From positions 14,142,240-14,206,239 of the forward strand of contig NC_049983.1 in NCBI RefSeq assembly GCF_000003815.2: a DNA stretch of 64,000 nt. Reading direction: 5' to 3'. The stretch is from Branchiostoma floridae. Lineage: Eukaryota > Chordata > Leptocardii > Amphioxiformes > Branchiostomatidae. The notes below the pieces were generated by a model, which saw only the letters and a list, made by a program, of their open reading frames with translations, searched no databases and had not been told where the DNA came from. Shown piece by piece: positions 2,110 to 62,641 of the stretch. A program made the position numbers and the translations under genes. How positions within the stretch are numbered: the stretch's first letter is position 1; every line of letters begins with the position of its first letter.

Positions 2110-3745
2110 CCCTGAAATTTGTCATTGGGAGTTATACGAAAGGCTAAGACGCCTTTTCCCATAAATCGAACGGTCCCAACAAGGTATCACTCAAAATTGT
2201 TAAAATGTTCGCAGCTGAGTTTAGCGAAGTGTTAGCCCACATCTTTAATTCATCTTAAGAAGAAGGATGCGTTCCCACTCAATGGAAGCAAGCGTCTATA
2301 ACACCTGTTTCTAACAAGACACCAGCCACTATTGAAACTTTGAGACCCATATCCTTAACTTCAATTTTCATTAAAACCTTTGAGTCCTATATCACTCAGT
2401 GGGTACTCCAGAATGTTGCCAGAGTGGTGGATACAAACCAGTTTGGTAACAGGAAAGGGATGTCTCATTATCTCACTAGCTTAAATAACTATACATTTCT
2501 TGGTGCCGAAATCCCTAGAGGTGTTCAAACAATCTTACTAACTGAATCTAGTAAGGCTTTCGATAGGATAAATCATACCAAGTTGATAGATAAAATGATT
2601 GCCTGTGGTGTACGGACGTTCATTATGCCATGGATCTTTAGTTTTCTTACCAAACGAAGTCAGTGTGTCCGATACCACAACAAATGCTCAGAAATTTCTT
2701 CTGGAGTGCCACAGGGCACTAAACTTGGTCCGGTTCTATTTTTGATATACATTAATGACGCTCTGAAAGACGATATCTTAAACCGATACAAATATGTTGA
2801 TGTCTGTGCGCGAGAGTCGACTTTATAATGAAGCGTGCCTAATCCAATCCTCACTTGACCAACTCAATACCTGGGCGACTAGAAATGACATGATTTAAAC
2901 AGCGAGAAATGTATTCTCATGACCTTTTCATTCATGAGGAACTGCCCTCCACCCCACAATATCTTACTTGCCGGAAAGTCCCTTAAGTATACAGAATCTG
3001 CTTGTATTCTAGGCCTTTGGTTATCTAGTAATCTAAGATGGGAAAACATGTAGATCGATGTTATAACCAAAAAGGCCAGCTCACGACTTTTCTGGCTAAA
3101 GAAACTAAAAAAAGTCCGGACTCCCTGTTCAAGACCTCTGTGATTTTTACCAAGGTTATATTCGCCCGACCCTTGAATATGCAGCTCCGGTCTGGCACTC
3201 AAATATCACAACGCAACAAGTATTGAAGATAGAACGTATACAGAAGCGAGCACTCAGAATAATCATTGGATCCCAGTATGTATGTGACAACAGCGCCCTT
3301 GACAAATTAGATATGCCGTCCTCGAGGAAAGAAGAGAAACCCTTAGCCTAAAATTCGCGAAGTCGCTACTCCACGACCCAACTTTCCGGCATTGGTTGCC
3401 TCCTACCCTCTTGCCAAAACAAATCGTTATAAAATGAGTCTAATTCCATATTTTGCAGCCCTAGTTAACAAACATTCGAGTTGACCACAAGTTGAAATCT
3501 TCCATCACCATTGTCAACTACTACTCTGTAGTAATAGCTATTTCAGTTATTACTCTGCAGTAATAGCTCATCTGTATTGTCTTACGGTGTTGATGTTAGT
3601 CTTATTACTATGCTTTTTATTTCTATTTTAAGTTTTAATGTACCTGTGTGTATATTCTAATTTCCTGAATATGTAATTCAGCGCGCTATGTATTGCGCTG
3701 CCATGTATTCAGCGATTGGTTGCAATCAATAAACTATCATTATTG
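2110..3745 (+). pseudogene. Degenerate non-LTR (CR1/L2/jockey-like) retrotransposon, reverse transcriptase remnant
   Basis: The clearest open frame (2340-2828) carries reverse-transcriptase landmarks: 'LRPISLTSIF.K.FE', a 'KAFDRINH' block, and 'SSGVPQGTKLGPVLF' before 'IYINDAL'. The catalytic YADD motif is degenerate: the frame reads KYVDVC and then stops. Downstream, further RT/C-terminal sequence continues in shifted frames, with 'SLDQLNTWATRNDM' near 2850 and a 'TLEYAAPVW'-like block near 3175. Several stops and frameshifts interrupt it. The 3' end resembles CR1/L2 tails ('aataaactatcattattg', 3726-3745). It is an inactive 5'-truncated copy. Confidence 0.85.
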
Positions 3746-15600: not shown

Positions 15601-17092
15601 TGCTCAACATGTTGAAATGAAATGTTGAGTAGTAATTGTAGTATCTTCTTTATCTATATATTGTTCAACTACTTCTAAAGCTTGGAAAAGACTTTGGATG
15701 ATTTATTTACTTTGTGTGCCTACGATTTCTTCAAAAGGAAAAATGCATCAGTTTTCTACTAAAAACACACTTCGAAACTCTTTGAATGATACAAAAATTG
15801 ACATATTGAGAAGACCATAATGTTTGTTAACCCATGATGATGGTTACGATATTGTATATTCTAATGAAATGCTTGCTTACTTGCTTATACATCTGCAGTC
15901 TCGAGTCGTCCTGTCTCCCCATGTGCCTTTGTCCCACAGTATCAGGAATGTAAATGAAAATAAAATAATCCAAACATCTTCCTTTCAGGCTCGATCAGAA
16001 GCCATCGCGACCTACGCCCTGTGCGGGTTTGCGAACTTCAGCAGTATCGGGATCCAGCTGGGCGGGCTGGGGCCCATTGCTCCCAACAGGAAGGGCGACC
16101 TGGCCGATATGGTACTCAGGGCCATGATCACGGGTGCCTTAGTCAGCGCCCTGAACGCCTGCTTGGCAGGTTTGTAGTCCGTTTATCATCACGCGGTTAT
16201 CATGGAATTGTGATTTTGACATCATCAACATTGCTTAACTTGTAATACTTTTACTAGCTACTCTTGAACATATTGTGCTCCATTTTGCTTCAGAAGGTCC
16301 TTGTTCAGATGCAGTCATTACTGTGATTAATGCAGATTTTTGATCAACAACATTCGCTCTAGGGTTGAAATAACATTGTTTAACGAGACTTGATTATTCA
16401 ACACATTTATTTAGCCCTGAATAGAATTTTAGGACAGAAAAAGGGATGGTTGGAAAAGTTGTGATAACTTGTTTTTTAACGGTTATTTCAATAATTGTCT
16501 ATAGACCAGTGGATTATTGTGATAGGGGAGGTGCTCTCACATTTTTTTCTCTAGTAGACACAAATTTAAATCAATTTTTGAAATCTTTTATTAGTGCAAT
16601 AATGAGATAGAGGGGTGCTATCACATTCTTTCACTAATTGACACAATTGTGTCTATTAGTGAAATAATGCGATAGTACAAAGATTGTGTCTATTAATGAA
16701 ATAATGCGATAGTACCCCTCTATCCCATTATTTCACTAGTAAGAGTACAAAGATTGTCTACTGGTGAAATAATGTGATATCATTGTGGTAACCATTATCA
16801 CGTGTGAAAGTAGTTAACACGTTTTTCAACTGAAACACTTTTAGAACTAAAATAATGGGATAAGTAGACAGTGTTGTTAACGCGGTGCGTCCGCACACTG
16901 CTGCTGCCTTAAATTGGTTAACCAACTGAAGTCTTTTTCGTCTGACGTTCCTCAGGACTCCTGTATCAAGAGGCGACCATTGCTGTCCTCCCGACAGCAG
17001 CAGTGAACACCACCATGGGGTACTTGAACATGACAACTCCTGCACCACCAGCCTGTGCCTATGCTGGCACTCTTCTGGACTGTATGTGTTAA
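12665..17092 (+). CDS. Concentrative nucleoside transporter, SLC28/CNT family (3' seven exons)
   Basis: Sodium-coupled nucleoside importer of the plasma membrane. Exons: 12665-12814, 13095-13256, 13679-13935, 14244-14412, 15426-15584, 15989-16169, 16956-17092. All have AG/GT boundaries and matching phases, giving 404 visible residues to a TAA stop. Diagnostic blocks in order: '[11 protein letters not shown]'; '[15 protein letters not shown]'; '[12 protein letters not shown]'; '[20 protein letters not shown]'; '[16 protein letters not shown]'; '[12 protein letters not shown]', which fits the CNT signature (G/A)xKx3NEFVA(Y/M/F); and '[14 protein letters not shown]'. The ion/nucleoside-site glutamates in GMTE and NEFVA are kept. 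The C-tail is short, with possible N-glycosylation sites (NTT, NMT). The N-terminus and first membrane spans are missing: the model starts in mid-gene and earlier exons must lie farther 5', possibly outside the window. Confidence 0.92.
14602..14809. mobile_element. Hairpin MITE in a transporter intron
   Basis: The arms 14602-14696 and 14714-14809 are near-perfect reverse complements (for example 'gcagaggttaggctccggct' against 'agccggagcctaacctctgc'), with a short ~17-base loop. It lies in the intron between the fourth and fifth visible CNT exons. Confidence 0.8.
16592..16785. repeat. Hairpin/tandem AT-rich repeat in the last CNT intron
   Basis: 'agtgcaataatgagatagag' (from 16592) pairs with its reverse complement 'ctctatcccattatttcact' (to 16738). 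Between and beyond lie direct copies of 'gaaataatgcgatagtacaa'. It is likely a small MITE with internal duplications. Confidence 0.55.
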
Positions 17093-40453: not shown

Positions 40454-43145
40454 ATGGATTTGAGACGGATGCAGTTCACTAATCTTAAGCTTCTTGTCTT
40501 TCTGTCATTCGTCTCAGCGACCTTGTATGAACATGGAGGTAAGCTCATTAATGTAGTATTCTATTACCTATCTTTCCGTTTTACTGGTACATAAAGGTAG
40601 AAGTTAGATCATTCATTCTTACTTGTTTCTTTATGGTTTATGATACAGTCCACATTGACACAACTTTCGTAAGGTCTACTACAACTTTTACTATACATTG
40701 AAACAAACAAGTGGACAACGTTTCAGATGAATTGTATAAGAATAAATGAACATGTTTAGTCTGACGCATCGTTGACAACTAGTTCTAAGGCCTAAACATG
40801 ATTTTTAACTTTATATGTGCTATAATTTTACAAAATAGCACCATGCCACTACTGGCACTGCTGTGTTATGAATTTATGTGTTTGATGTTGCTATTTAAGT
40901 CCCGACTTTGCATTAAGTTTCTACGTATCAAGTTGTAATCTGCGAGGATATCCTAGTGATGATAAAATTCCGGTAATGATCTCAGGTGCAACTGTAGGGT
41001 AAAATAAATTTTGCTAAGTGATATCTAGTACCAGGGGATACCTTGAGTCTAGCCTGGGTACCATCCGGATAGTAGTTCACTTCGACGTTTATTATATACC
41101 ATTTACGTCGATTCTCTGTTATTCTGCTATGGTAGTAGAAGCGAACATATGCATAGGAGCGAACTACTACCCTACTGGTACCCTGACTAGTGGGTCTATG
41201 GAGCTAAACATAACCACTAGACATAGTAGCTAAGTTAGGCCTACGGAAAAATTACATACTAGTATATGTAAGGAGACAATGTTCGTTGCGTTGGAGAGAG
41301 CAAGGACGTTGAAATGCAGATCTTCACGTATGGAAAACATAGAATACTCAAGTTACTGGAAACCGTTAGATGTAGAATATCATCCATTGCGTTGGATAAA
41401 ATGGCAGCGCCGAGACTCACCTGTTTTGACTTTTTCGTCTTTTTAAAACATGACATAAACTACCCCTGCTTTTACAATGAATACCTAAGGTTTTCTGTGC
41501 CACGTAGAGCAGTTTTGCACTTAGTAAGTTAGCCAATTAGTGAACATAGATGTAAAATATCCATAGAGATGTTTGAAAAATTGCAATTCGTGATGTGTTG
41601 CTGTATTTCCTCAGCCGTGCATGCAAAGCTTCAGGGGCCGCAGAGAACATGTTCTCCGTTTTACAACCCTGCGGGGATATATGTCCCAGAGTTCAGCTGT
41701 GACGATGACGTGTACCCATACTGCTGCGGGGTGTGCGACAACAAGTACTGTTGCCGTGACAACTCAAGTCTCATCTGGACCGACTGCGACCAGCCAAGAC
41801 TCCCATTAAGGTACGGATGACACAAGGATGATTGGTTTATCACCAGATGCCACACACATTTGCTAAGGCTGTTTATGTTAACCCTGATGGAAGGGAAACA
41901 TATTGTTTTTGCTCCGTTTCTCCCTCTTCTTCTTCTTCTTCTTCTTCAAGTTTGCCAAACAAATAAGGTCAATGACCTGAACCAGGCGACTGTCACCATG
42001 GTTACTGGTAATGTAGTAGACTACCAAGTAGTGTTCAAGTATATGGTGAAGTTTGCCAAACAAATAAGGTCAATGACCTGAACCAGGCGACTGTCACCAT
42101 GGTTACTGGTAATGTAGTAGACACCACGTAGTGTTCAAGTATATGATGTAGTAAGTGGCAGGACAGGGATGAACAGGCTAGTCACCACATATATTGATGT
42201 GGTTGATTAAGGCTTAGGCTAGGCCATGTGAAAGTAAGCATTATGTATTTGCCTGCAAAATGATAACGTTAACTTAATTTTTCTAGTTTGTCTAGTTTGA
42301 CTACAAAATCCTCTACCGCCTTGCAAATCCGATGTACTTTTCTTTTCATTGGAAAATGGCATTGGTCGAAGTGACGCCTAAACACTGACCATGATTTGTC
42401 TTCCAGCCTGATCATTCAGCTCGGGTTTGCGGTGGTTGCCACCCTGTTCCTTGTGGTTCTCTTGCTGGTCGCTGGGTGGTGTTGCAAGAGATGCAGAACC
42501 AAGAAGGGGCCAGTAGAAGAGAGCGACGAAGAGGATGACATCGACAGCTTTGGCAGCGGCAGAAGAGCGCAGTGTAGGTGTCGGATGTAAACATATCTTC
42601 CAAATATTTTGAGAACTATACACGAAAGCTAAAGATATCAGCCATGTAACAAAATCAAGTTCGTCTATGTTGAATCATTTAAGTGACTGATAGATTTCAG
42701 TATCATGTATATCATTCGGAATGTTAAGACCGCTTCATAAGAATCCACTTTAGTTTTTTTTTAATAACTCATAAGGATCCACTTTCAACAACAGTTTCAT
42801 CAGCACCTTGAGTAGCTCACTTAGCTGTAAGTTCATGTGATGAAAGATTTATGTTTTTATGCGCGTAGTTCTTACACTTATTCTTCCCAATAACGACCAT
42901 TCACATAGCCGAAAATCTCTTCTTGTGCAGATACGAGCGCACGACGCCATGGGTTCTACGCGCCCCCTACCAGATCGAGTGGGTACAGCAGCCGTCGTCC
43001 GTGTCCGTGCGGTTCGCCCGTTCTCCCTGCGCATGCCCAGTTCTGTTACCATGGCTACATGAATCCTGTGACGTACCCCTATCGGTCCCCACACGGATAC
43101 CACGGGAAACAGGCAGCACAGACTATCGTTCTGCAGGACTTCTGA
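40454..43145 (+). CDS. Shisa-like single-pass membrane protein
   Basis: Four exons: 40454-40538, 41615-41810, 42407-42573, 42931-43145; phases match; 220 residues. Exon 1 gives a signal peptide (MDLRRMQ..LKLLVFLSFVSA). Exon 2 gives the Shisa-type cysteine-rich ectodomain: 'CSPFYNPAGIYVPEFSC', 'YPYCCGVCDNKYCC', then 'WTDC'. The YCCG-x-C...YCC core is the family hallmark. Exon 3 gives one hydrophobic span ('FAVVATLFLVVLLLVAGWCC') with a basic stop-transfer (KRCRTKK) and an acidic patch (EESDEEDD). Exon 4 gives a tail rich in P, S, Y and R, ending VLQDF. Shisa-family proteins tune maturation or trafficking of receptors such as Frizzled, FGFR or AMPA receptors. The subfamily cannot be assigned by eye. 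Confidence 0.82.
41047..41190. repeat. Small hairpin repeat in Shisa-like intron 1
   Basis: 'gggtaccatccggatagtag' near 41056 is an imperfect reverse complement of 'ctactaccctactggtaccc' near 41171. It is probably a short MITE. Confidence 0.45.
41948..42146 (+). repeat. Two-copy tandem duplication, 101-bp unit, in Shisa-like intron 2
   Basis: 'aagtttgccaaacaaataag' starts at 41948 and again at 42049. Both copies continue 'gtcaatgacctgaaccaggc' and are almost identical. A CTT microsatellite (about 41928-41947) precedes them. The open frame at 41860-42081 crosses this repeat and is not a gene. Confidence 0.85.
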
Positions 43146-46949: not shown

Positions 46950-49781
46950 ATGGTGACGACGACAGTTCCTGAGAAGCACCTGAGGTTGATGATACTGACT
47001 CTGTGTTTAGTACCAGCGTTTTCACAAGGTAAGACTTGAACAGACTGTGAACTCTGTGAGCCGATTGATCATACTGTTTAGGAAAACATGTACACGTAGA
47101 CTGTTATACATTTAAATAGCGTTAAAAATTATTATCTGATGTCAAGTGTGGAATTCACTACTCTAGAGCGTGTCAGAATATTTTTCCTCAATCTGGGGGC
47201 ACATTTCCTGTTTATCTGTACATAGTATTGGCGAAGACGAAACGTCCGCGGTTGTTTTTTCCTATTTTGTGTAAGACCCAGGATTAGTACTAATCTACTG
47301 CTTCCCTAGTGCTTCCCAGATATTGAATATCTTAGGCAGATTTTCGACGTTTGAGCCAACTCAGACCTAGGAGGGGCTCTCATGGTTATGGCAAATAACA
47401 ATGCACTTGAGTTAGGCCCAAATATCTTTGAATTCTTTCCTTTGAAGAAATGAAATACCATCTTTTGTTATCTTAACCTATGCCAAGGTCCTTTCAGTGG
47501 TCTTGCTGTTCAAAGTCTGCCATTTATCGAACCTAATCGTCCGAATCACACTTAAGTGATGGTCTATTGTACGATGTCCCTTGATAGACTTCCAATGTTT
47601 CCCGAGCTGTCATTCTGCTTGAACAAAACCTATAACTACTTCAACCTCAAATTCTTGGTTGTCAGGGTCTTCAAAGGTACTAACGTAAGCGTCTAACGTT
47701 TAGAAAACATAAATCTGATCAGACATTAGAGTAAATGTCCCCACCCACAACACTTGTCACGCCCAAGCAGCATGTTTTCTTAATGTCTCTCCGAAGATCC
47801 TTGTCTGCAAACCATGGACGCTGTTCAAACAAGAAAACAAGATAACGCTAATACTTCATTCTGTACTAACAGGATCAAACGAGACCACCGCAGACTTAAA
47901 GTACACCCCAACTTTACCCGGTCGTCTATCACGTCTTTAGAATACTGGTAGAAGGTTTACGTCAAGGGCCTACCGTCCATGGGGTAGACGTACGCATGGC
48001 TTGACAATGACGATAAATAAGCTAAAGGCGGGCTGGTCATTTGTCAAGCTCAGCAAATTTTACGTTGTTGTTTCAGCATCTACTGACGCAAAACAAATTC
48101 AAGCTTCGCAGTGGAATTATTAGAGTGTGAATCAGTTGAGCCGCTAGCAAGCAAAAACCCAGAAAACACAGCAAAATCGAAAAGAGGATAACCACTCTTG
48201 ATTCTTCCATTCCCTAAACGCCCTGTATGTCAGATTTTAACAACCGTACTACGGAGGATGACGTTTTGCTGTGTCGACAAATAGATAGCAGTAGGTAAAT
48301 ACCTGTCGTATGCACAGGTGGGTATGTAAGGTATGCAGGTGGGCGTGACAAAGACATGGACTAAATCACGGACAAATGGATCGTAAAAAGTTCTCACAGA
48401 CGAAGGTATATTTATGGCGCTTACAACATTTACGTGCGGAAGACCTGGCCATAAAACCGTGCCATGGACAAAGATCACATTGGTTTTCAATCATTAACGA
48501 TTGGGGGTCATTCCGTCGAAAAAGGATGAGAGAGATATGTATAAAAACAAGTTGCTGTGTAGCCAAAACAAAAATGAAGGGGAGCAATAGAATTTGATTT
48601 CAGATAATTTCTGCACAAATCTTCACTCTTAACTTTATGTTTCTGTGCGCTCAACTAACTTTTTACTTTTTCACTTGTGTACTTCTACGATCTATTGCTT
48701 TGCTTCTTATTGCTTTTGACAAATGTGCAAAAGTTTAATTTTTCTTCCTCGGTTCTCAGATGGAATTTTCTACGATGACTGCCCTGAGAGTTACAGCGGT
48801 TATTGCCTGAACGGGGGGACGTGTACCATATTACCTGGGCTGCCGGAGGATCAAGCGATCAGATGCAGGTGAGTTCACAACAAAACGCAGTCAGTCAATT
48901 GTTGAGTCGGAGAACAGTTGATCTCTTCATTAAAGCGCAGCCTTTATCTGAATTATGTAAAGACGAAGACCTTCAACAAAATGTCCCATTATCATTGATA
49001 CATACAACACCAAGAAAAATCGAATACAACACGAAACATGATATTGATGAAGTGATAACTTTGACCGTGAACACAGTAGAGATGTCTGTTGTTTGCATTT
49101 CCAGTTGCCCATCTGACAAAGTAGGAGAGCGATGTGAGAACAGCAACCCTAATTCTCAAACTACAGCGAGAGGGCCTGAAGGCGAGATCCGAGCTGTGTA
49201 CATCGTTGTGGGCGTTCTTGGGGGACTCCTGCTCATAGCCACAGTTGCCACAGTGGTCTACTTCTGCAGGTTAGTGTACTGCTATGCCCCTATCTTTCCT
49301 AGAACAGCATCGGCGAGATAAAGTCTTGAATTATGCCTCCTTCCGGCCAGGTATTTTCGTCAACAATACTTCTGTGTTCCCTAAACAAGGTGTGCCCGTT
49401 GGTACCAATATCTCGAATACTTTACAAGGGAGATCATGGTGATAAATCAAGGTTCAAAGTAAACACATGTTAGGAGTCAAATGCTATAGCTAGCTCTTGT
49501 TGCTATCATAGTTTCGTTCCCTTCATCAATCTTGAATTGTATCAAACCACTACTTTGACTAATGAAGTTCAGGTCAGGTCCTCTGTGATTGTCACTTATT
49601 AGCTAATATTCACTCACTATCTTTTTGATCTGTCAAATCTAGAACACAGTAATAACGTAATTTTCCTTGCATTTCTCAACCATTCAGACGAAACAAGCAT
49701 GAAGGCGAATGTGAAGGAGAACAGAAACTTAATGGCGGCGAGATGTCCTCAACGAGCAAAGTCATCACTACAATAGTATAG
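46950..49781 (+). CDS. EGF-family membrane-anchored ligand precursor, gene 1 of cluster
   Basis: Exons 46950-47028, 48760-48868, 49105-49269, 49688-49781; 148 residues. Exon 1 is a signal peptide (LMILTLCLVPAFSQ). Exons 2 and 3 form one EGF domain, 'CPESYSGYCLNGGTC', then 'IRC', then 'CPSDKVGERC'. The spacing C-x7-C-x5-C-x13-C-x-C-x8-C and the GxRC end match ErbB ligands such as EGF and TGF-alpha. The phase-2 intron falls in the single codon between Cys4 and Cys5, as in vertebrate ErbB ligand genes. A short linker, one membrane span ('YIVVGVLGGLLLIATVATVV') and a ~35-residue tail ending TTIV follow. That end fits a class I PDZ ligand, as in pro-TGF-alpha. An optional linker exon may exist at 47873-47920. 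A receptor role is inferred from family resemblance only. Confidence 0.8.
47873..47920 (+). other. Possible optional linker exon in EGF-like gene 1
   Basis: The segment sits between an acceptor (ctgtactaacAG) and a weak donor (GTCGTC). It is 48 bases, phase 1 to phase 1, and would add 'SNETTADLKYTPTLP' between signal peptide and EGF domain without breaking frame. Gene 2 has a phase-1/1 exon at the equivalent place. The poor donor keeps confidence low. Confidence 0.3.
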
Positions 49782-51942
49782 GTGCGTATTTTTAGACAAC
49801 CACATAGTAGTTCCTAATGAATATTTCCTGTGTTTGCAAAGTCCAGGATTCACTGTTACATTTAACGCTGCTGCATGGTAAACGCTGGCATAAGTATAAA
49901 CCGTATTTAATATGCTAAAATATACCATTGTACTTATGACAGTAATTTTATGCATATATGCGTAAAAATGTTTTAAAACCTACAAATCTATAACTTACAT
50001 CTGTCTTCAGACAAAATGCAGCCTCCAAAATTGAAAACGTTCATCTTAATTGTAAATTTGTGATTATAATTACATTTCATTAATTGTATCATCTCTTCTA
50101 TCATTATTTTTCTACAGTTGCACGTGCAGGCTGCCAAAAACGTACTCAAGATTCAGAGGCAACATTATTTATTTCTCATCTATTGTAAAAACAGCCAACT
50201 TTGCCGGGCGTGCCTGATATGTATTCTATTGCTGAGATCTGTACATAATCTAAATATGTTTGTATCTACATATCATGTAAATATATTCTGTACCTCTTAA
50301 CGAAACTCATGATCGCATTTGGTGTCATTGATGACGATATTGTGATAGGTAAGTGAAAACGTGTGAACAGGTCTAGGTGTACAGTAAAATATTTTGGTTA
50401 TTTAAATCCTGATTATCAAATTTGAATACATAGACATAAAATTCATTAGATTGTGTTGAGAGTTGTTTCACACCGCATAGTTCATTTTGACGACTGTTAT
50501 CAGTAAAGTATACTATAAAGTATATCTGTGGCTGTGATAATTATATGTTCACTACTTGTAAATAGCTTGATTGATACCCTAGATATCTAGATTGATACCT
50601 AGAGCAAGGATTGTAGTGACAGATTGAACTGCGTTGACTGAGTTGGAGGCATCCTTCCTTCCCACTTGTCTGTGACAAAATAAAGTATCTCAATACCATA
50701 AAATGCAATGTTTTCTTCTTTAAAAACCACGTGGCTAATGCTTCCAAGCTAGGAACGAAAGAAAAAAATAGTGAAAGGTAAAGGTAAATTCGAGGAGAGC
50801 CCGAGAAGAGCACCGGAACATCGCATTTGATCGATTATGAATACTACATCGCAGTACCTAGAACCGTGACCGCAAATACAAATTATAGCTCTATAAGTCG
50901 TCTCCAAAACATCAATCCTCCCTGGAATTTCATGGACTAAGGACTGTAGAAGAAAAGGAATCGCATTCTAGCGGAAGTTCCCACAGATGTAGAGCAAGGC
51001 TGAAGACCGGAAGCGACGCCAGTGGAAGTCTAAATATAGGAACAGCAAGTGTGCAACCTGGTCTAGCTATAGGTAGAGCCCGGGTCATTGACCGCTACTA
51101 TAAAGTACTTTACATGATGAGGTCTGTCATTATTGGCCCGGTGGTCATGTTTATTATTAGCTTCAAACTATTCGAAAGGCTGCATGGGTGGGCCTTTGCA
51201 AGGTAACGTTGTACTTCGTTTGGGTGACGGTACTGTCAACGTGTCAGATAAAGAAATTATTGCAATTTCTTATACATCGTACTGAATTCGAGTTTGCTGC
51301 CAAGTAAATGTTCAAATGGAGTGCCGACACGCGACAGGATAGAATTCCCGTTCCCTCCTCATACCACAGGTACCCAAGCTTATTGAGCGACATGGGCCGA
51401 TGTCTCTGTTGTGGTTGATGACAACACCTAAGAACGCTTGTTGTTTGTTGTTAGTTTATACTTGAAAGGCGTAATAAACAAATTTGCCTATGGTTACGAA
51501 GAATTTTCCAGATTCTCCAGATAACTCCTGTCCAGGCGAATATCCTGTGGTGTCCACGTCAATGCCCTGCCGTACCCTGATACCCCGCCCTACTCGCACG
51601 CTTAATTGTTCTCACCCACTGACAGTACAGGCAATCCCTTCCATCCAACAAGGAACATCTTTGTGACGTCTTCTTCGACAATGCTGTTCCCGGAAGCCGG
51701 ACGTCTTGTACCCAGGCTTTCTTAGTAACGTCTTGGCGATGAGTGTTCGCAACTTATAAATTGTGCTGTCAACACGGTGTTTAACACATTCGAGTTGTGA
51801 CGACCGTGACACCATTGAGAGTTTCTCCGTGTTTAGGGGCAACATTTGGCATCGCCAGCATCTGGCTCGACTCTCCTGCACCACGGCATAGTTGGAACGT
51901 TTTCAGGCAGTCGTAGTTCATTCTCTTTCTCCGTGACAGAAG
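49782..51942. other. 3' UTR of EGF-like gene 1 and intergenic sequence
   Basis: A plus-strand AATAAA at 50679-50684 is a candidate polyadenylation signal about 0.9 kb after the stop codon. No further exons are recognised. The minus-strand open frames at 50541-50813 and 51612-51884 lack recognisable features. Confidence 0.4.
51753..51760 (+). promoter_or_regulatory. TATA-like box upstream of EGF-like gene 2
   Basis: CTTATAAA lies about 185 bases before the start codon at 51943. Confidence 0.45.
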
Positions 51943-54900
51943 ATGGTAGGAGATAGCATGCAGTACTTGGTGGGGATCTGGATCACTCTGTGTTTGTGTA
52001 GTCAGTACGCAGCACAGTCGCAGACGACAAACGTGACACTGCCGCAGGCGTCTAACACGACCCAATTTGAAGGTGAGTTTCTATGATTCCTTGTGCTTTA
52101 CCTGTGGTACGCATTTCGTACAGCCATATCCAAACAGGACAATTTCTGGTATGTGTTAGGCCCTCAGCTAGTGGGTTTGGCCTTTTGAAATTGTCAGAAG
52201 GAGTAGAATTTTTGCAAATAATGATTAGGATCTCTTACAGACCTCACAAACAAGAAAAATGATTTTTGTGTCCGACACTAGGGGTTATTGGCTCATTGTC
52301 GTATGTACATGTTTAGAGCACGATGACCTATTTCTCCTTCTGATATTGTCGATTTTTAACATTTCTTTAGACTGGATATGTTAGATATTAGAAGGAGAGT
52401 TTATGTGTTTTCGTTCCACATTTTTCGACGTGTTTTCAGTTTTTGCTCGTGGGAATGTTTCTGTCATGAGTGGATATACTTCGCCAGCCCTGCACGTATT
52501 GTCATTCTGTTTGTTGTTGGTTCATGGTCGCGGAATGCCGCACCTCGGGCGAGAAACACCTGGTGATGACTCTGTGACTGTCAAAGTCGTCTGCAAGATA
52601 AGATTAAGAACGACCTAGAAGCTGTTCAAACGACTGTTTTGAGTGACGACGACTGTATATTGGACCTCGAATCCCAGGCTGATAGTGAAGAACACCAAGC
52701 AGAATCAAACACACACGTCTGAAATATAAAATGCGAGTATAGGAATAGTACCTTTATTCAAAACAGGCGAAAGGTGAACGATGTTTTACCGCATTTATTG
52801 GTAAATTGGAAGGCTCCAGAGGACGCCGACGACATGGACGGACTAGAACAAACATGTTTATTACATTACATTGGTACGTGAAAATTGTGACGCAATATTG
52901 GTCATTTTGCAATTCCATTTCCCATTATTCCACTTACGATCTCAGCCACGAACATGTCGCGATCGTTGCTAAACTCTCACCGTGAACAGATTCAAAGAGT
53001 AAGAACCCGTTATAGACTTGATGTTGCCCACCACTAATCTCCCACAGTCTGTCACCATGGGCATCGTTAATCGCTGTGGCAGGGGCTTAGATGTGGTGAC
53101 CCACAACCGCGACAGGGTAATCCCAGGCCATTTCACCTTCCGCGAAATAAGATCCATAGGAACTGTCTTTTCCTGGTAGACTACTTGCGCAAGAGTTTCC
53201 TGGTATTTCCTAACGCACACGTAAACAGACCCCCCACTCCAACGGAATTTGGACATTCCTCTATTGGTCGATAAAGAGACTAGTAGAATATCAGGGATAA
53301 AAATGATGGACAAATCAGTTCTAAAGCAACAACAAGAGTTACTTTAACGAGACAGTACGTCTGTGTGTTGTCCTTTGTCGTCTCGTGTCCGATAACTGGT
53401 AATATTTTGTGTTGCGGCTTTCATACACCCCCAATCTTGGGCCTCCTACCAAACCGACCGCCCACTTGGCCCAGTGCCCACAATCATCCCACCTCCACAA
53501 GTTCACGTGCGAGAGGATGTTGACTAGACCTTGAGGCCCCACAGGCTGCTAGAAAACATTGTTGATATATTAGGAATATCAAAGTAGAACATACCATGAG
53601 TTTTACATGTTGATATTATGACTATCAATATTTGTCGGGGTTGCTTCCGTCGATTCACTCAAAAATGATCTACGAATAGGAAGACTACAATGTCATCAGG
53701 AATGTCGCAACTTTTGTCATTTCAAATGATTTGAACTTTTTGTCACGTCCACAGCAACACCGCAGACTATAACAGTCCATCGGAGATCAACATCCAAAAA
53801 GATTGAAAATGGCACAGGTTAGTGTAATGATTTTGCAATTTCTGTCCGCTTATAGGAATAAAAATACTACATAATGTTCTTTTGTCAGACTTAGAGTATT
53901 TTTTTGTATTCATGAAAGTATGTGCCATTCAAGTCGTGCTCATTTCAAGTCCAAAAGTCATTGTATCATTCGTACTTGTGGTACATTCTTTATCCATGTT
54001 GTACACCTGTCAGGGATCTAGCCAACGTCCTTCCGTCCTTTCACGAAATTTTGCTGCCACTGTACCAGGCAGAGCAGGAGAGCAAAATCTGCCCCTCAAA
54101 GTGCAGGAAATGGACACCTGTACCTGTTTGACCTACATTGTATGTCTATGACCAGGTGAGGAAGCCACTCCGACAACATTGTCAACCGGGCATTTCCAGA
54201 CATGTCCCACGGAGTATGAGGGTTACTGTGATGAGGGAACGTGCAACTATATCGCGGAACATCCGGACCCTAAACAGAGGATAAGCTGCAGGTAAAACTG
54301 ATTGACATTGTCAGAAACCTAGAGACACGTACATAGAGTTTGGTGGGGGTTGCCAACAGGAAGTTTTTCAAAACATCAAAGATGACCGCGATAAATCTGC
54401 TGTAGAATTAACAACCAGATTACTGTGTGTAAAGTAGTAACGTTTTATCAGCATTAAGCTAATGCATAGACCGTCCAAGAACCTTTGGTGGCAAAAGTGA
54501 AATTAGTCTTAACATTAACTTCACTACATCTTATCCCCACATTTTGTAATCATTAGATGTAATCAAATATACAAGTCATTTTAAGACGCGTTTTTTTCTA
54601 TTTCCCCCCCTTCAGTTGCCCCCCGTGGAAACGAGGACAGCGCTGCCAGTTCAGTGACCCTGACTACTCCAGAAAAGACTCTGTGGAACGGGCCCTGCTG
54701 AACAGTTATGTCGTCATCGGTGTCCTGGTGGGACTGCTGGTCCTGGTGGCAATACCTGCGGCGGCTTTCATCTGCAGGTAAGGTTGGCTATAGCCTGACT
54801 AAAATTGCGCTCCTAGCGGCCAGCACTACAGTTGCCGACACCTAGGAGGGGGTCATTAACCCCAGCCAGTGAGAGATTGTGTAAGGCTGGCTAAGGTTGG

Positions 54901-55266
54901 CTAGTGCTTAAATAAGATATCAAACACGGCATTGTTTTTGTTGTTTCATGAATGTCCTCTTTACATGACAACCTGGCAAGTAGAAATTATACTTCTTCAA
55001 GCCAAAGGGAAGCTAGTTCTGAAAGCTGAGGTTGTTTATAAAACTCGAAGGTTGCCATAGTGAATTCTACTATAAAACATCTTACACACTTATTAGTTGC
55101 ACATTTCTAACTCTGGAAAACTTTATCACTGTGTATGAACGTTAATGTAGCAATGCTCCTAACAGGCTACTTTGTTTCCAGACGCTCACGGTCCAGCCGA
55201 GATTCCAACATGAACGCACGGGACATGAGAGAGGCGGGGTCAAGTGCAACTCTCATGGGACCATAG
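51943..55266 (+). CDS. EGF-family membrane-anchored ligand precursor, gene 2 of cluster
   Basis: Exons 51943-52072, 53755-53817, 54156-54291, 54616-54777, 55182-55266; phases agree; 191 residues. A signal peptide ('YLVGIWITLCLCSQYAAQ') is followed by a Thr/Asn-rich linker with N-glycosylation sites (NVT, NTT, NGT). One EGF domain follows: 'CPTEYEGYCDEGTC' ... 'ISC|S|CPPWKRGQRC' (C-x7-C-x4-C-x14-C-x-C-x8-C), split by the phase-2 intron between Cys4 and Cys5. The membrane span is 'VVIGVLVGLLVLVAIPAAAF' and the tail is basic (RRSRSSRDS). It differs from gene 1 by an extra 63-bp phase-1/1 linker exon and a tail ending MGP, with no PDZ ligand. It is probably shed or juxtacrine by analogy with ErbB ligands; the receptor is unproved. 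Confidence 0.8.
52640..53560. other. Intron 1 of EGF-like gene 2; unresolved minus-strand open frames
   Basis: A 114-codon minus-strand frame (52969-53313) is overlapped at its end by a second open minus frame reading 'NDAHGDRLWEISGGQHQVYN', which ends at a GTAAGT. I do not recognise either. It could be a decayed exon of an unrelated nested gene or chance. Confidence 0.25.
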
Positions 55267-55669
55267 ACCAACTGCCTCCATCCATCATCATTATTAGGAT
55301 CTGTGTATTTATTAACATGTTACGAAGGATAAAATGCAAGGCATTTATTTATTCATTACTGACATTAGCATTACATACGTTTAGAGTTTAGCCCAATGGC
55401 ATTCTTCCCCCTGTAGCTCTCTACATCATTGCTAAGTTACAACTTAAAACTTTCGTTCATATTTATACTGACACATGTACTTAGATGGTACGTAATTGAA
55501 CTGTACTAAGAATATGTCCTGTATATATAGAGTTTCAAGCTTGATTTATACCATGGTAACCAGAGTTTGTCTTGATGATACATTGAGGAAGGTTACGTCA
55601 TTTTCACCCTCCATATAGTGATACTTGTACTTGACATAAGGAGTCGTTTCCTCCTTGAATAAAACACGC

Positions 55670-55765
55670 AATGCAAACACACACGTACGCACACGTGCAC
55701 ACGCACACAGTGACACACACACACGCACACACATGCACGCACATACGTACGTACACACACACACA
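55670..55765. repeat. CA/TG-rich microsatellite
   Basis: Imperfect (CA)n interrupted by ACG triplets, e.g. 'gtgacacacacacacgcaca'. The minus-strand Cys/Val-rich open frames at 55546-55895 are its translation and not genes. Confidence 0.85.
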
Positions 55766-55925
55766 GTATAATTTGGATGGTAGAAAATTTATCAGTGCCA
55801 AATATGAAGTACACTACAGTCAAAACGGTGGCGGATAATTGATCTGTATATATTTGAAAGTTATAAATCAACATAAATGTACTCTCTACTGACACATGAT
55901 ACGTCGCTATGACGTAATATTTTTG

Positions 55926-55931
55926 AATAAA
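55926..55931 (+). terminator. Candidate polyadenylation signal of EGF-like gene 2
   Basis: AATAAA on +, about 660 bases after the stop codon of gene 2 and about 120 bases before the opposing signal of gene 3. Confidence 0.5.
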
Positions 55932-56049
55932 ATCTACAATGACTTATAACACCGTTCATGTTCTTTTATTTACACATCTTACTATAAGTAATTTTAAAAC
56001 AACATGGAACCTGCCCAGGTAAACCACACACATATCCACACAGTCAGGC

Positions 56050-56055
56050 TTTATT
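56050..56055 (-). terminator. Candidate polyadenylation signal of EGF-like gene 3
   Basis: AATAAA on the minus strand, about 80 bases after the gene 3 stop codon. Confidence 0.55.
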
Positions 56056-56133
56056 GTACGAATATGGCCCAGTTGTTGTCGATGCCATCAGACATGTCAG
56101 TTCTCCTCGCCAATAGTAGCTCGCTGTGCGTCA

Positions 56134-58191
56134 TCAGTTCAGAGCCGCTGTGCTCCCGTATTCGGTTTTGTCACCAGACTCACCAGGTGTCCGAATGTTG
56201 TAGACAGCTCTACGACGGTACAGCCTGATTAAAAAAACACCGTAGCATGCAGTTATCAACATTTATATGTGACCTTGTGGACGAGGCAAAAAGAAATGTG
56301 GAGCACGTGAAATAAGCGATTGTGTCGAAGAAGATTTGTACAGCATGACTCATCTTTATTTTTCCATTGTTGTGCATCATTGCCCTGTACTATTTCGGCT
56401 TATACATGTAGGTCATTTTGAGATGCTCGGACATACATTGGTTGTCAAGCATGTGTTATCATGATGTTTTATAGCCGTGAAAATCTTAGACGACCCTGCG
56501 GGGCTTACAAAGAAACTTGCACCCTCACCTCCAGCCCAGGTAAGCAGCCCCCAGCAAAACCAGCACAGACAGTACACTGGAGGACACGGCAGCGATGATG
56601 ACAGTGTTGTTAGCCGTTGAACTCCGACCTGCCACCATGCCCCGTCGGAGGTGGATATTGCCGTTCTGGCAACGGTTTCCCACGTAGTCAGGGGTGCAGC
56701 TGTGGTGAGGATGGAAATAAAGGTCACTGACATTCTGTTCCAAATGATGAAATATGAAGTCGTGATAACGTGTTCTGCTTCAAACGTCGGAAAATTGTGA
56801 ACGATCCGGCGGAAAAATCAGTCTACAACATCTATTGTTCACATCCTCTCTGCAGCCACGCCTCTGCTTTTAAACAAATGTCCGATCAATAATCCAGCCA
56901 CTTTTCACTTTTTCTGTAAATTCTTAATCAAGACATGAGTTGAAAATGATCAACAACAAGTCTATAAATGTTTTTAACATTGACATCATATCCTTGTTTA
57001 TAAAATACATTTCTCCGATGAAAACCCTTCGTTTCTTGATTCATTATATGTACCACCAGAAACATGTTGTTTCAATTCACACGTTACATGTGTAGACAAT
57101 ATTCGTGCGAGTTGACAAACAGCGGTCATAGAATATCATGGTCATGTCGACGAATGTGAGAGGACAATTGTAGTACCAACAGAGCTCTCTCTACCTCTGC
57201 GGTTGCACATAAGTGCGGCTTTTCTCCGCTATTACCGTGAGAACGGTTTATATTTTAGCGTGGGGGCATGAAATTCAATGGACAAATGAAAACAAGCGTG
57301 GTTTCAGCACTTGGAACAGAACCTTCGGTGTCTTGGAAATCGGTTGACAAAAATAACAACAACAAATACCCATATATATTTATTTACCCATATATACCCA
57401 TTTCTGAATAAACGAATAAACGAAACGAATATTTCTGTGAGCACAAAGAAACCTGCAGGACGTCCCTACCGACAGAGCGGCCGCTGATGAGGGTCCGGGT
57501 GGTCCGGCAGGTAGAAACAGGTCCCACCGTGCAGACAGTAGCCATCATACTCTGCAGGACACTCGACGTAGTGCGAATGTCCAGTGGTCACAGTTGTTGT
57601 CCTTGTGGCATTTTTTGTAGTAATTTCTTCAATAATCGCATTGCCTGGAGAGATTGATATGTTGATCCAGATGAAAATATGTAGAACTTTGTTTCAAAGG
57701 TGTCACTTTTGTAGAGTTGCATTTTATTCTTGTCTGGAAAAACGTATTGTATTTAGAGCCCCCACCGCTTGTGGTTTGGGCACTATTTATATATAGTTGT
57801 AATGTTTACCTAGTTAGTTATGCAAGCATGATGTTGATATCTATAGTCTGTTGGAATTCATCTTTGCAGATCCACATGACAAGGATAATATCGACAAACT
57901 TTCCTTCAACATTACCGTGCCGCGTTTACTTTATTGTCTGAAAAAAGGCGAAAGAAATGTAACCATAAGCACAGAAATTAGCGTTACTTGAAATACGACC
58001 TGGGAACGTTACCGTATGCTGTTCCCATATACATACCGCTAAACACACGTACGACCCACCTACATATCACAATACACCTGCTGGAACAAACCTTCTGTTG
58101 GGACAACGTTGACTTCCACCGGTTTCCTCGAAAACGCTACCGATGCGGCGGAACAAAGCCAAAGGCAGAGAAGTTGTAGAACGCACCGCAT
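56134..58191 (-). CDS. EGF-family membrane-anchored ligand precursor, gene 3 of cluster (inverted)
   Basis: Exons in transcript order: 58191-58092, 57644-57470, 56699-56529, 56224-56134; 178 residues. A signal peptide ('MRCVLQLLCLWLCSAASVAF') is followed by a Thr-rich linker (TTKNATRTTTVTTGH, with an NAT glycosylation site). The EGF domain is 'CPAEYDGYCLHGGTC' ... 'LC|R|CTPDYVGNRC' (C-x7-C-x5-C-x14-C-x-C-x8-C). The Cys4-Cys5 codon is again split in phase 2, here as CG|C (Arg) rather than AG|T. The membrane span is 'VIIAAVSSSVLSVLVLLGAA' and the tail is short and basic (RLYRRRAVYN), ending AALN. It is transcribed opposite to its neighbours and converges with gene 2. 'HPDP' in the Cys3-Cys4 loop is shared with gene 2, suggesting that these two are the closest relatives. 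Confidence 0.8.
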
Positions 58192-60510
58192 GATGGTTGG
58201 AAATGAACAGGACGTAGCGGTGGTGGTAAAATAATGCTGGACTTTTAGACTTCTCGGAAGTTATGGGTTATTACCTGTGCAGAATTGCGGCCATTCCGGG
58301 TACTTTGTGGTTTACGGATCATGATAAGAAAAAGTAAACGTCACTAGGAAGACGAGGGTTTCAAAAATGTTAAATTCGTTTGAAATATTTCTTAATTTGA
58401 TGGTTTGAAAAAAAAAACACTAAAATTCAGAAACTTTTCAATCAGATATTTCAAACGTTTCCTGTCCTGTCCGGCACTGCCTATTTGTACTCTACATGTA
58501 TAAAGATTTAGATAAGCAAATGTATCATATCATATCATATAGTTTGTCTGATTGTCTGCTCACACGAGCACTCTACGTTATACGGATTTCATTTAATTTT
58601 TTATTTAGGTTCACTAGAAAATACTGACCAAAGAAAATAAAAGAATTTAATAGGGAACCGATATGTACAGCCAACTGTGACACAAACCACAGAACGTAGC
58701 TTAGATAGCCACGAGAATCAAACAAACTCACGTGACGTGACGTACCTACACTGTACCAACAACTAGTTGACTGGTAGTACCAAGCAGGTCTGGTACCAGG
58801 TGTGTTTTACAACAAGCAGATGAGGTTTTAAAAAATAACACTCGTGCTATGTTGTGTTGTTGCTTGAGATTTATCCTACAGTGTAAATGTAATTGATAGG
58901 CATTGATATGGTGTTGACGGTTGGATAAAAGTCCCGAAAAGTATGATACTTTTTCTCATAATGATTAATTCTGTACGTGTCTTAGGCTTAAAAAAAATAT
59001 CAAGGGACAATCAACCAGTCTGTTTATGATTTGAAAGTGGGCATCTTGTGTGTGTCGACCCGAGTGTTGTAATGTTAACGTTCTAGTCGGATATTGAGTA
59101 ATTTGTAATCTAAGTTACATCATACTTTGCACAGCGAGTTCTGAACTCCGGCCAAGATTTGCTGACACTATCTCTGCGGGAGCACAACATTGTCGTCATA
59201 ATCCACTCATGCGGTTTTGAACCGTATCTCCTGATCTTCGCTAATGCTACACGTAACAATGGTTTGAATTATACTATCTACCAGTAGGCTACTATTCACT
59301 AATACCACTGTCCCTCCCACCGCCCCACCCCCCTCTTCTCTGTGTAATAGTAATTCTCCGGTCACTTTCACGCATCGTGAGTTGTCAGGAAATTTTGCCG
59401 ACGGGACTTTCCCTTTTCTTGACGAATTTGATGGATATACGTCATGTTCAATTGACGGTTCCTGTCCTAAATCCACAAGCATATCCGCATGTTAAAGAAC
59501 GTACTATTTTGTTGTGGTTACAATGTAGTTTGTAAAAATTACTGTACGTTCATAGACCTAGTGAGTGTTGACATGGAAATTACATTCGGTAGTTCTGTAG
59601 CAAGATAGAGGTAGGGAAGTAATATTCTATTTTAACTATTACAAAGAAAAAAAAAAGTACATAAACCTATGAGTCTTTATCGATATGAATAGAATGCCAG
59701 ATCATTACGTAACATGCAAATGTCAGGTTAAGAAAAAGTGTACCAAATGTTCCTCAATACCTTACTTTATGCTTCCTGTAAATCTACTCAAAAGTGAAAC
59801 TCATATTATGATTAAAACCAAACATTTCGTTCAGTAACCAGTCATATCAGTGAAAGTGGGGCATCTGTATAAACAGTGGCTCAACTGTTGAGCTGCCCAT
59901 ATGGAACGTTTCCAACATTTGGCGGGAAGTCCCACAGACGCCGTGTCACGGGCGCGTACGTCAAACACTGACCTACTGATGTCTTCAGAAGGTTGGGGGT
60001 TTACAACCATCAAGTCTGGGGAATGCTTTCCAGAAAAAAGCGGGAAAAAGTACAGGGAAGGTCTTGGAAACGGTGAAACAAAGCTTGGTTTAGAATACCA
60101 TGAAAATTGTGAATAGAATTGGGGACCGAACGCAATACTTTCCGGTTTACGGCGAAATTCAGGGATTGGTGTTTTTGTTGCCACCCTCCCATATTCTTTG
60201 CACACAATCGAGCATCCCTTCTAGGGTTGTTACATTTGTAGATTAACCTTTGGCTTTGGTGATCTGTGGGATTGCGGTTCACACTGTTTCCCCAGGAACA
60301 CAGCCAAACCCTGGGGGTGACAAAACATTACGGCGCAGAGTCAGGGGTTACTCGGAGGAGAGGATTTCCGTTGTTTGTTCCCAGTACGTGGGACGTCCCG
60401 CGCTGTGACGCAATCAGGAGGGGGCGGAACTGCTCTATTCATGGACTAGGATGAACAACTTTATCGGAATGTCGCACTCGAATTTAAGACGATGATGCTC
60501 TCTTGGAACG
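58192..60510. other. Shared 5' region between divergent EGF-like genes 3 and 4
   Basis: Genes 3 (-) and 4 (+) diverge across about 2.4 kb. No exon is recognised. Open frames at 59831-60282 (-) and 59901-60116 (+) overlap each other and lack domain features. A (ATATC)n-type microsatellite lies at about 58526-58541. Confidence 0.4.
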
Positions 60511-60518
60511 TTTATAAG
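60511..60518 (+). promoter_or_regulatory. TATA-like box upstream of EGF-like gene 4
   Basis: TTTATAAG lies about 140 bases before the start codon at 60656. Confidence 0.45.
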
Positions 60519-60655
60519 GGAGGGAAAGTTGACAACAAACAGTACTTTGCCGGAGCAACCCTATAGCAGCCAGGATAGTCAGATATTCCCTGCCCTGCTA
60601 CTAAATTTACTTGTATCCCTTTCGCCGCCTCTGATAGTAAATCCCAAGCAGGATC

Positions 60656-62641
60656 ATGACGACATCTGTGCTTGCACGACGCCTTCTGCAGTTCTGCTGC
60701 CTGGTCTGCCTGTCTGCCATTCCGGTGTTCTCACAAGGTAGGTTCACATGCAAATGTTCATTTCATTCTTAGTGTCTTTATGGTGTAATAGATATCAAAA
60801 TTCAAAGGAGCATTTTGTATTTGGCATTTTGTAAACCCTGTGTGTTGTATTTTTCTCGTAATTTCGGTTTTATTTATGGAGATAGTTCCTCTAATTTTTA
60901 CTTTTCTCTCCTAGAAGAACCTTTACAACTAGAGCTGACGTCCCAGGGCGTGCTGTGCGGTCCAGAGTACGACGGGTTCTGTTTGAATGGCGGAGAGTGT
61001 GAGATAATCCCGGACTTCGCCAGGCCCAGATGCAGGTAAGGAAGTTATGCTATTTGCTTCCCTTGGTAATAGATCTATTGATCTTTAAATTCTTGCAACG
61101 ATTTGGACAATTATCTGCAAAATGCTAGTTAACATAAAACAACTTTTTTTTTGTGATTGCGTAGACAATGCATTCAAAACGTTAAATTAATCAACTGCTT
61201 ACAGTTAAGAAGAAAAACGTACGGGTAGTCTAGGTCTTAAATTCGACAACTCAGTACTATTGAAGGTCAAGATGGCGCCCGTAGCCCAAGTGCGTGCCAT
61301 GTTCCAATGAAAGATGAAAGCATGTATGTTCAGAACCATGAATTAATGATGATGTCATTGCGTTATGTAGTGAATTATCAATGAACTTCTTGTCTCGTAT
61401 TCTCCTACGTATGCTATATAGTCATATAGAGGCCGGGAGAGGTATCTAAAGTTAGTGAGACCGACGAGGTCTCTATTGTGATTTACCCTATTTTCGCCAG
61501 CTTTGTAAGACGTTCTTTTAGATTAACGTGAGAACTTTAAGACAGAACACTTCAAAACTGAAACCACCATGTACTGCAAAACTCATGTTGAGGAGAAAAT
61601 ATGTATTTCTACTGTAGCATTTCGACGACATTTGTTACATCAACTCATGTCATTGCTTGTTCAGTGTTAAGAGTAAGCCAATAGCCTGTCCAGTTCGTTA
61701 AGTTTTAACTTTAAACGTTGGATCCACAGTTGCACATGGGAGTACATGGGAGAGCGTTGCCAGAGAGGGAACATCCTGGCCATACAAGCCATGCAGGAGG
61801 AGCTGCGGGACTATTACATCATCATGTCGGCTATGGGCGGGGTCCTGGTGGCACTGATGGCTCTGGGAGTAGGCTACATCATTTACAGGTAGGACAAACG
61901 CACATTCTATTATCAGTCTAAATGTAAAGTACACGCGCCTTTGTCGACGTTTTAGACGATCTACTTTTGTGTTGTATAGCCTGATTCAACGCAGAGGTTA
62001 AATTGCAGCCGGTTGAGCTGTTTTGAAGTAGAGAAAAGGGAAATATATCACATTACTATGGTCACAGGAGGAAAGAGTAGGCGCCGGTATGTCCGTCGTC
62101 TTTAGCTTTGCAAGGAATTCACCCTTGTCTAACTTAGTTTCCTTGTACTGATGGCTAAGTTAGTCTCCTTGAGCTGTGACCAGAGTACTTTTGGCAGCAA
62201 GTCAGTTGGTGTGGTTTAGTGTTTTTTTAAACCATTTTATTGTCGAAAAGTAGGGCTATAAATGCATTTAAGTTCGCGGGGATTTACTTTCGCGGTAGCG
62301 GGAAAATTGAGTTTTCGCGGTGGTTTTAACTTCACGGTAGCACCATCGATTGCAGTCTCATACTATGTACAAGTATAATTGAAAAAAATTCGCGAAAGCC
62401 GCGAACATAAAACCACCGCGAACATTTCTCCATTTACAGTATGTCTGTGTTAAATGTTGCGCTTTTCTGGAGTTTTACTAGATGGCGCTTTATGAATGCC
62501 TCTTACCGAACCGTACCATTGTTGGAGTGTTTGTATTTATTTGTCGTTACTGTGTAACTCGTGTAACATATGTTATATCTTTTACGTTTTGTTCTCCACA
62601 GGAAATGTGGAAAGCCAGATCCAAGACCAGAGTCGGTGTAG
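60656..62641 (+). CDS. EGF-family membrane-anchored ligand precursor, gene 4 of cluster
   Basis: Exons 60656-60737, 60915-61035, 61730-61888, 62602-62641; 133 residues, the most compact member. A signal peptide ('LLQFCCLVCLSAIPVFSQ') and a 15-residue linker precede the EGF domain: 'CGPEYDGFCLNGGEC' ... 'RC|S|CTWEYMGERC' (C-x7-C-x5-C-x10-C-x-C-x8-C). The Cys4-Cys5 codon is split in phase 2. The membrane span is 'YIIMSAMGGVLVALMALGVG', followed by a ~14-residue tail ending RPESV. The phase fixes the last exon's frame; a longer open frame over that exon is out of phase. The terminal 'ESV' could fit an acidic-type PDZ ligand, but this is weak. Gene 4 has the closest juxtamembrane arrangement (few residues from Cys6 to the membrane). 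Confidence 0.78.
62265..62440. mobile_element. Hairpin MITE in the last intron of EGF-like gene 4
   Basis: The left half carries 'ttcgcggggatttactttcg' and 'ttcgcggtggttttaacttc'. The right half carries the inverted 'gcgaacataaaaccaccgcg' and 'aattcgcgaaagccgcgaac'. The repeated TTCGCGG words pair across a short centre. Confidence 0.7.

Follow-up and report, generated by a model that had tools for sequence, protein, structure and literature searches.

A tandem array of four ErbB-ligand-like genes within a family of at least nine split-EGF loci in the lancelet Branchiostoma floridae

The 64,000-nucleotide stretch of the Branchiostoma floridae genome analyzed here (hereafter the window, bases 14,142,240-14,206,239 of the 29.55-Mb contig NC_049983.1, or C5) contains four neighbouring small genes for EGF-like ligands, G1 to G4, spread across 16 kb (window positions 46950-62641). 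The tandem array itself is real and, as judged from their sequences, its members belong to the ErbB-ligand genes. We favour the explanation, with a probability of roughly 0.78, that G1-G4 are genuine ErbB-ligand genes that were duplicated locally with one inversion, mostly in the lancelet lineage, and that are part of a family of at least nine loci. The array was probably built within that lineage, rather than being a forerunner of the human EREG/AREG/BTC/EPGN cluster.

Gene models were obtained by joining exons at GT-AG borders, which delimit all the introns of the four models (13/13). G1 (plus strand, 46950-49781) has four exons encoding 148 amino acids, G2 (plus strand, 51943-55266) five exons encoding 191, G3 (minus strand, 58191-56134) four exons encoding 178 and G4 (plus strand, 60656-62641) four exons encoding 133, G3 being inverted with respect to the other three. 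A first-pass annotation of this DNA had described four small genes, each encoding a leader, one EGF domain, one transmembrane segment and a short tail, with a phase-2 intron in the single codon between Cys4 and Cys5 and matching exon phases elsewhere, and the models bear out this description. The EGF module is interrupted inside the Cys4/Cys5 codon by a GT-AG intron of phase 2 in all four genes, the leader exon ends in phase 1 in 4/4, and the intron directly following the membrane span is of phase 2 in 4/4; an extra 63-nt exon (phase 1-1) is present in the G2 model only. The exons are, in window coordinates:

46950-47028, plus strand: G1 exon 1, start codon and leader with putative signal peptide, ends in phase 1
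48760-48868, plus strand: G1 exon 2, Cys1-Cys4 half of the EGF module, ends in phase 2
49105-49269, plus strand: G1 exon 3, Cys5-Cys6 half, juxtamembrane stretch and membrane span, ends in phase 2
49688-49781, plus strand: G1 exon 4, cytoplasmic tail and stop, C-terminus TTIV
51943-52072, plus strand: G2 exon 1, leader and start of the propeptide, ends in phase 1
53755-53817, plus strand: G2 exon 2, propeptide exon of the G2 model only, phase 1-1
54156-54291, plus strand: G2 exon 3, Cys1-Cys4 half of the EGF module
54616-54777, plus strand: G2 exon 4, Cys5-Cys6 half and membrane span
55182-55266, plus strand: G2 exon 5, cytoplasmic tail and stop
58092-58191, minus strand: G3 exon 1, leader, ends in phase 1
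57470-57644, minus strand: G3 exon 2, propeptide and Cys1-Cys4 half of the EGF module
56529-56699, minus strand: G3 exon 3, Cys5-Cys6 half and membrane span
56134-56224, minus strand: G3 exon 4, cytoplasmic tail and stop
60656-60737, plus strand: G4 exon 1, leader, ends in phase 1
60915-61035, plus strand: G4 exon 2, Cys1-Cys4 half of the EGF module
61730-61888, plus strand: G4 exon 3, Cys5-Cys6 half and membrane span
62602-62641, plus strand: G4 exon 4, short cytoplasmic tail and stop

Each predicted protein has a hydrophobic N-terminus, a single EGF module, one membrane span and a short tail. The best 19-residue hydropathy values lie between 2.2 and 2.9 in the membrane span and between 1.4 and 1.9 at the N-terminus, the latter suggesting a putative signal peptide, and 19-22 residues separate Cys6 from the most hydrophobic 19-residue stretch in all four, which places the EGF module next to the membrane. 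The cysteine pattern proposed from the first inspection, C-x7-C-x4/5-C-x10-14-C-x-C-x8-C ending in GxRC, holds in 4/4, with spacings of 7/5/13/1/8 in G1, 7/4/14/1/8 in G2, 7/5/14/1/8 in G3 and 7/5/10/1/8 in G4, and with the Arg preceding Cys6 always present. All four proteins likewise retain a Tyr and a Gly between Cys1 and Cys2, an aromatic residue preceding Cys2 (Y/Y/Y/F in G1-G4) and a Gly two residues ahead of Cys3. The tail of G1 terminates in TTIV, by eye a class I PDZ-type end; TGF-alpha has a similar C-terminus. Half-modules with this spacing and with GT or AG at the expected place were searched for over 104 kb of C5 (10 kb on the left, the window and 30 kb on the right), a search in which members with another Cys1-Cys2 spacing are detectable by their second half only; it returned four first and four second halves, every one within the cluster. 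Two further first-half matches were discarded as low-complexity CA-repeat, and a place at 20.25 Mb of C5 that fits the first-half pattern reads as a Notch-like repeat, the pattern being not fully specific.

Since the Pfam EGF matches of these proteins were only sub-threshold, profile searches against the PDB were used. With the EGF-only alignment of G1-G4 as a profile, 42 of 177,635 PDB sequences were listed at E ≤ 10, and 27 of the 29 at E ≤ 0.002 are ErbB-ligand chains. NRG1 (1.1e-11), EGF (1.3e-10), TGF-alpha (1e-6) and Spitz (1.1e-6) were matched, as were EGF/TGF-alpha chimeras, heregulin, EREG, AREG, BTC, HB-EGF and epigen, and the two remaining chains belong to PVFP-5 (2.7e-5) and to an EGF-like peptide of ant venom (1.3e-4). 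Other EGF proteins start at E = 0.11 (urokinase 0.11, EDIL3, Notch 0.23, factor IX 1.7), and a Spitz/LIN-3 construct ranks late (E = 0.39). The full-length profile gave a similar list down to E = 0.0013, followed by membrane-span matches such as CD166 and EphA2. Searched individually, G1 (7.5e-7), G2 (2.1e-5) and G4 (7.9e-8) each found an EGF/TGF-alpha chimera first and G3 found NRG1 (4.6e-9); the best matches of the cluster are thus mostly of NRG1/EGF type, with the exception of G2, for which betacellulin is a close second (2.6e-5). The ErbB-ligand identity put forward by the first-pass annotation is therefore upheld by the profile and by all four single-protein searches. That annotation had also named a grouping with Notch- or selectin-type EGF repeats as the outcome that would speak against it; Notch enters the profile list only at E = 0.23 and no selectin occurs among the 42 sequences.

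According to the consulted sections of Stein & Staros 2006 (PMC1618406), ErbB ligands are marked by the Cys4/Cys5 splice site together with an EGF module near the membrane, and verified ligands have an Arg before Cys6, tomoregulins excepted. All three features are found in G1-G4. The same sections report the splice site in non-Drosophila spitz, vein, tomoregulins, neuroglycan-C, mucins, meprins and IMPG2, the mucins, meprins and IMPG2 not being proven ligands (PMC1618406). As the site occurs in insect and other genes, it is not diagnostic of the vertebrate EGF/TGF-alpha/epiregulin type, to which its layout had at first been compared: the site is indeed the same, but it is a general mark of ErbB ligands, shared with insect spitz and vein and with five more loci of the lancelet genome.

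These five loci were identified by querying the genome (513 Mb, 431 contigs) with G3, G1 and G2. As judged from sequence, the genome holds at least nine split-EGF ligand-like loci including G1-G4, a lower bound rather than a count of proven ligands. The G3 query led to two loci on C3, at 18.18 Mb (minus strand) and 29.55 Mb (plus), and to one on C17 at 18.99 Mb (minus). The G1 query recovered all three and also reached C6 at 9.49 Mb (plus), around which a 30-kb scan revealed a neighbour at 9.48 Mb (plus); the G2 query of the genome gave no additional ligand-like locus. Both half-modules and the phase-2 Cys4/Cys5 junction are present in 5/5. Their modules are nonetheless less canonical than those of the cluster: there are 13 (C6 9.48 Mb), 8 (C6 9.49 Mb) and 12 (C3 18.18 Mb) residues between Cys1 and Cys2, versus 7 in G1-G4. 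The C6 9.49 Mb and C3 18.18 Mb loci carry the membrane span in the Cys5-Cys6 exon, like G1-G4, which is not the case for the C6 9.48 Mb, C3 29.55 Mb and C17 loci. The two C6 loci form a second tandem pair (C6:9483501-9491423), and a single locus lies at C3:18175944-18176526. The locus at C3:29549635-29555392 has 15 residues between Cys3 and Cys4 and an intron of 5.6 kb separating Cys4 from Cys5. Its top score is with NRG3 (83; human sequence entered by hand), and no trusted Ig domain was found near it by regular expression and eye. In the locus at C17:18988026-18988489, the Cys3-Cys4 loop has only 8 residues. Other matches that were inspected were rejected by eye, namely an EGF-like frame with another spacing on C7, Notch-like repeats on C4 and a bare membrane span on C10 (all from the G1 query), and a C14 match of the G2 query without an EGF half.

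ErbB-type ligands in lancelets have already been published, whereas the tandem array, judging from open-access listings, apparently has not. Table 2 of Barberan et al. 2016 (PMC4914847) gives four EGF-like and one neuregulin-like ligand for B. floridae, which probably include some or all of G1-G4, that is five ligands versus the at least nine split-EGF ligand-like loci counted here. The consulted parts of that paper contain no genomic layout of these ligands, and no description of the tandem array or of the larger ligand number was found among the open-access literature matches listed. A 19-chromosome assembly of B. floridae was described by Simakov et al. 2020 (PMC7269912).

The origin of the array was addressed with two trees, one of 21 EGF domains and one of 12 EGF-transmembrane (EGF-TM) stretches, in which the human rows are sequences entered by hand. 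Each tree has one well-supported fork, and the trees were used for orthology only through the constraints reported below, whose p values are approximately unbiased (p-AU) and uncorrected for the number of tests. The four cluster genes group with three other amphioxus genes in the 21-row tree (84/73) and all six amphioxus rows fall together in the 12-row tree (59/88), weakly in both cases.

Several observations weigh against our explanation of G1-G4 as genuine ErbB-ligand genes duplicated mostly in the lancelet lineage. The Pfam EGF scores of G1 (13.7 bits), G3 (18.3) and G4 (10.5) are below the cut-off of 21.5, and the Pfam scan found no EGF match in G2. G1-G4 are not recovered as one clade, their forced monophyly (p = 0.10) being neither shown nor rejected, and the lancelet-specific timing of the duplications depends on unresolved trees with hand-entered human sequences. 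Moreover, the position of EGF Leu47 (+5 after Cys6), where ErbB ligands have Leu or a large hydrophobic residue and which is important for the binding of EGF and TGF-alpha, is occupied by Pro in G1 and G2 and by Ile in G3 and G4. This substitution makes the receptor affinity of the four proteins uncertain, and it may be low or altered.

Some members, G1 and G2 first, could bind ErbB receptors weakly or serve as decoys or antagonists in the pathway instead of as agonists, as suggested by their Pro at the Leu47 position. Nevertheless, the Arg of GxRC and the aromatic residue are kept in 4/4, and amphiregulin lacks that Leu yet is an agonist. We consider this explanation unlikely.

The first-pass annotation had also proposed that the array would bear on the origin of the vertebrate EREG/AREG/BTC/EPGN cluster. 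These genes are clustered in vertebrates, and in the consulted parts of Laisney et al. 2010 (PMC2834686) one pre-duplication gene is proposed, no clear amphioxus or Ciona orthologues are reported, and whether the vertebrate genome duplications were preceded by one EGFR ligand or by several is left open for that reason. The C5 cluster could be the direct counterpart of an ancestral chordate array behind these four genes, with TGFA, HBEGF and EGF resulting from gene loss that followed genome duplication. In favour of this are the tandem arrangement of four EGF-TM ligand genes with the same intron and betacellulin as a close second match of G2; in addition, HBEGF pairs with AREG in the 12-row tree (95/95) and EREG/AREG/BTC/EPGN as one clade is rejected there (p = 0.010), both of which would fit several pre-duplication ligands. 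Published ligand pairs also cut across the vertebrate cluster (PMC1618406, consulted sections), which together with this rejection would suit an old multi-gene array. The constraints are divided: the grouping of the C5 genes with EREG/AREG/BTC/EPGN is not rejected when the other amphioxus rows are left free (p = 0.153; 0.385 without AREG), but it is rejected when these rows are held outside (p = 0.011). When single C5 genes were paired with EREG, AREG, BTC or EPGN, six of the 16 pairings fell below 0.05, namely all four with AREG, G1 with EREG and G1 with BTC; the EPGN pairings were disfavoured least (p 0.23-0.32).

The predominance of NRG1/EGF-type matches and the (weak) grouping of the amphioxus rows together argue against such a counterpart, as does linkage. 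The CaMKII, adducin, Sec15 and anthrax-receptor families are located on vertebrate ligand chromosomes in human. In the lancelet, the CaMKII marker maps to C3, Sec15 to C4 and adducin-like frames to two places on C4 (distinguished by eye from the remaining Aldolase_II matches, which lie on C4 and C6, with 3/11 matches inspected), so that 0/3 families found lie on C5, a small sample; nothing was found in the genome for the anthrax-receptor family. We therefore regard a direct counterpart of the ancestral array as improbable. It is somewhat less probable still that the chordate ancestor had a tandem EGF-TM array of which the C5 and vertebrate arrays are the remains, TGFA, HBEGF and EGF being ohnologous leftovers, a reading at odds with the published single-gene model. 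An ancestral cluster in chordates, while possible, is unsupported, and the evidence leans against the C5 array as a missing link: with mostly NRG1/EGF-type matches, a general intron and none of the three marker families on C5, a special tie to the vertebrate cluster is not supported.

That G4, and perhaps the whole cluster, is the lancelet counterpart of NRG4 and not of EGF type appears very unlikely. The top human global score of G4 is with NRG4 (116, versus 94 for NRG1, 92 for EGF and 90 for AREG; hand-entered sequences), and exons of a sodium-dependent nucleoside transporter (Pfam Nucleos_tra2_C, window 13676-16174, plus strand) are located about 31 kb from the cluster, human SLC28A1/A2 being on 15q like NRG4. 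However, the comparison spans only about 40 residues, NRG4 is not grouped with G4 in the 21-row tree, and ETFA, which adjoins NRG4 in human, maps to C2 and not to C5, leaving the NRG4/15q24 linkage idea unsupported. Hardly credible, finally, are membrane EGF proteins outside ErbB signalling (Notch-, selectin- or mucin/meprin-type), which share the Cys4/Cys5 splice site in the case of mucins, meprins and IMPG2, but against which stand the profile and single-sequence ranks and the Arg before Cys6, present in 4/4 here and replaced or variable in several mucins, meprins and IMPG2 (PMC1618406, consulted sections).

If G1-G4 are genuine ErbB ligands, as we favour, they would derive from one EGF-TM ligand gene by local duplication and one inversion, and their precursors, once expressed, would be type I membrane proteins directed to the cell surface by the predicted signal peptide. 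By analogy with the family, the juxtamembrane EGF module would be shed through ectodomain cleavage or else displayed to an adjacent cell, and would bind the lancelet ErbB receptor(s), leading to dimerization and kinase activation. A single amphioxus EGFR had been assumed, whereas ErbB domain-IV matches occur at three places of the genome, two of them on C18 and the third on C1. The two on C18 (C18:10194749 and C18:10639431) are of ErbB domain-IV type, in opposite orientation, 445 kb apart and 81-92% identical over their three longest alignment blocks, being either a duplication or an assembly of both haplotypes; the C1 place holds cysteine-rich repeats, as seen by eye.

As regards the surroundings of the array, Shisa_N exons flank it, at window 41533-41817 (plus strand) and at 2235-2465 (plus strand) of stretch L023, the latter match of 20 bits being just under the Pfam cut-off of 22. 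A reverse-transcriptase fragment (Pfam RVT_1) lies at window 2340-2828 (plus strand). TATA-like motifs are located at window 46758, 51755 and 60513, 143-192 bases 5' of the start codons of G1, G2 and G4, and none was found upstream of G3; they were not retained as a shared promoter feature, being present in 3/4 genes but also in 410 of 2000 random 150-nt stretches.

The full coding models of four lancelet EGF-TM ligands and the five further loci make the question of Laisney et al. testable, as is now the evolutionary claim tied to the vertebrate cluster, which is not supported so far. They also provide an example of a non-vertebrate chordate in which ligands are many and receptors few.

Among known systems, the vertebrate EGFR ligands (EGF, TGFA, HBEGF, AREG, EREG, BTC, EPGN) resemble G1-G4 in having a juxtamembrane EGF module in a membrane precursor, the Cys4/Cys5 splice site (PMC1618406), GxRC and an aromatic residue before Cys2, and EREG/AREG/BTC/EPGN are also clustered (PMC2834686). 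G1-G3 differ from them by a Cys3-Cys4 loop of 13-14 residues (10 in G4) and all four by Pro or Ile in place of Leu at +5 after Cys6. NRG1 is among the best matches for both profiles and for G1, G3 and G4, and the NGG-type Cys2-Cys3 loop of G1 and G4 and the long Cys3-Cys4 loop of G1-G3 are neuregulin-like. Neuregulins (NRG1-NRG4) have the same Cys4/Cys5 splice site; unlike them, G1-G4 encode Cys5-Cys6 and the membrane span in one exon, have no Ig domain in the Pfam scan and have short tails. Insect spitz and vein are ErbB ligands as well, as G1-G4 are predicted to be, and although Spitz scores below NRG1 and EGF against the lancelet proteins, the non-Drosophila members share with them the Cys4/Cys5 splice site (PMC1618406).

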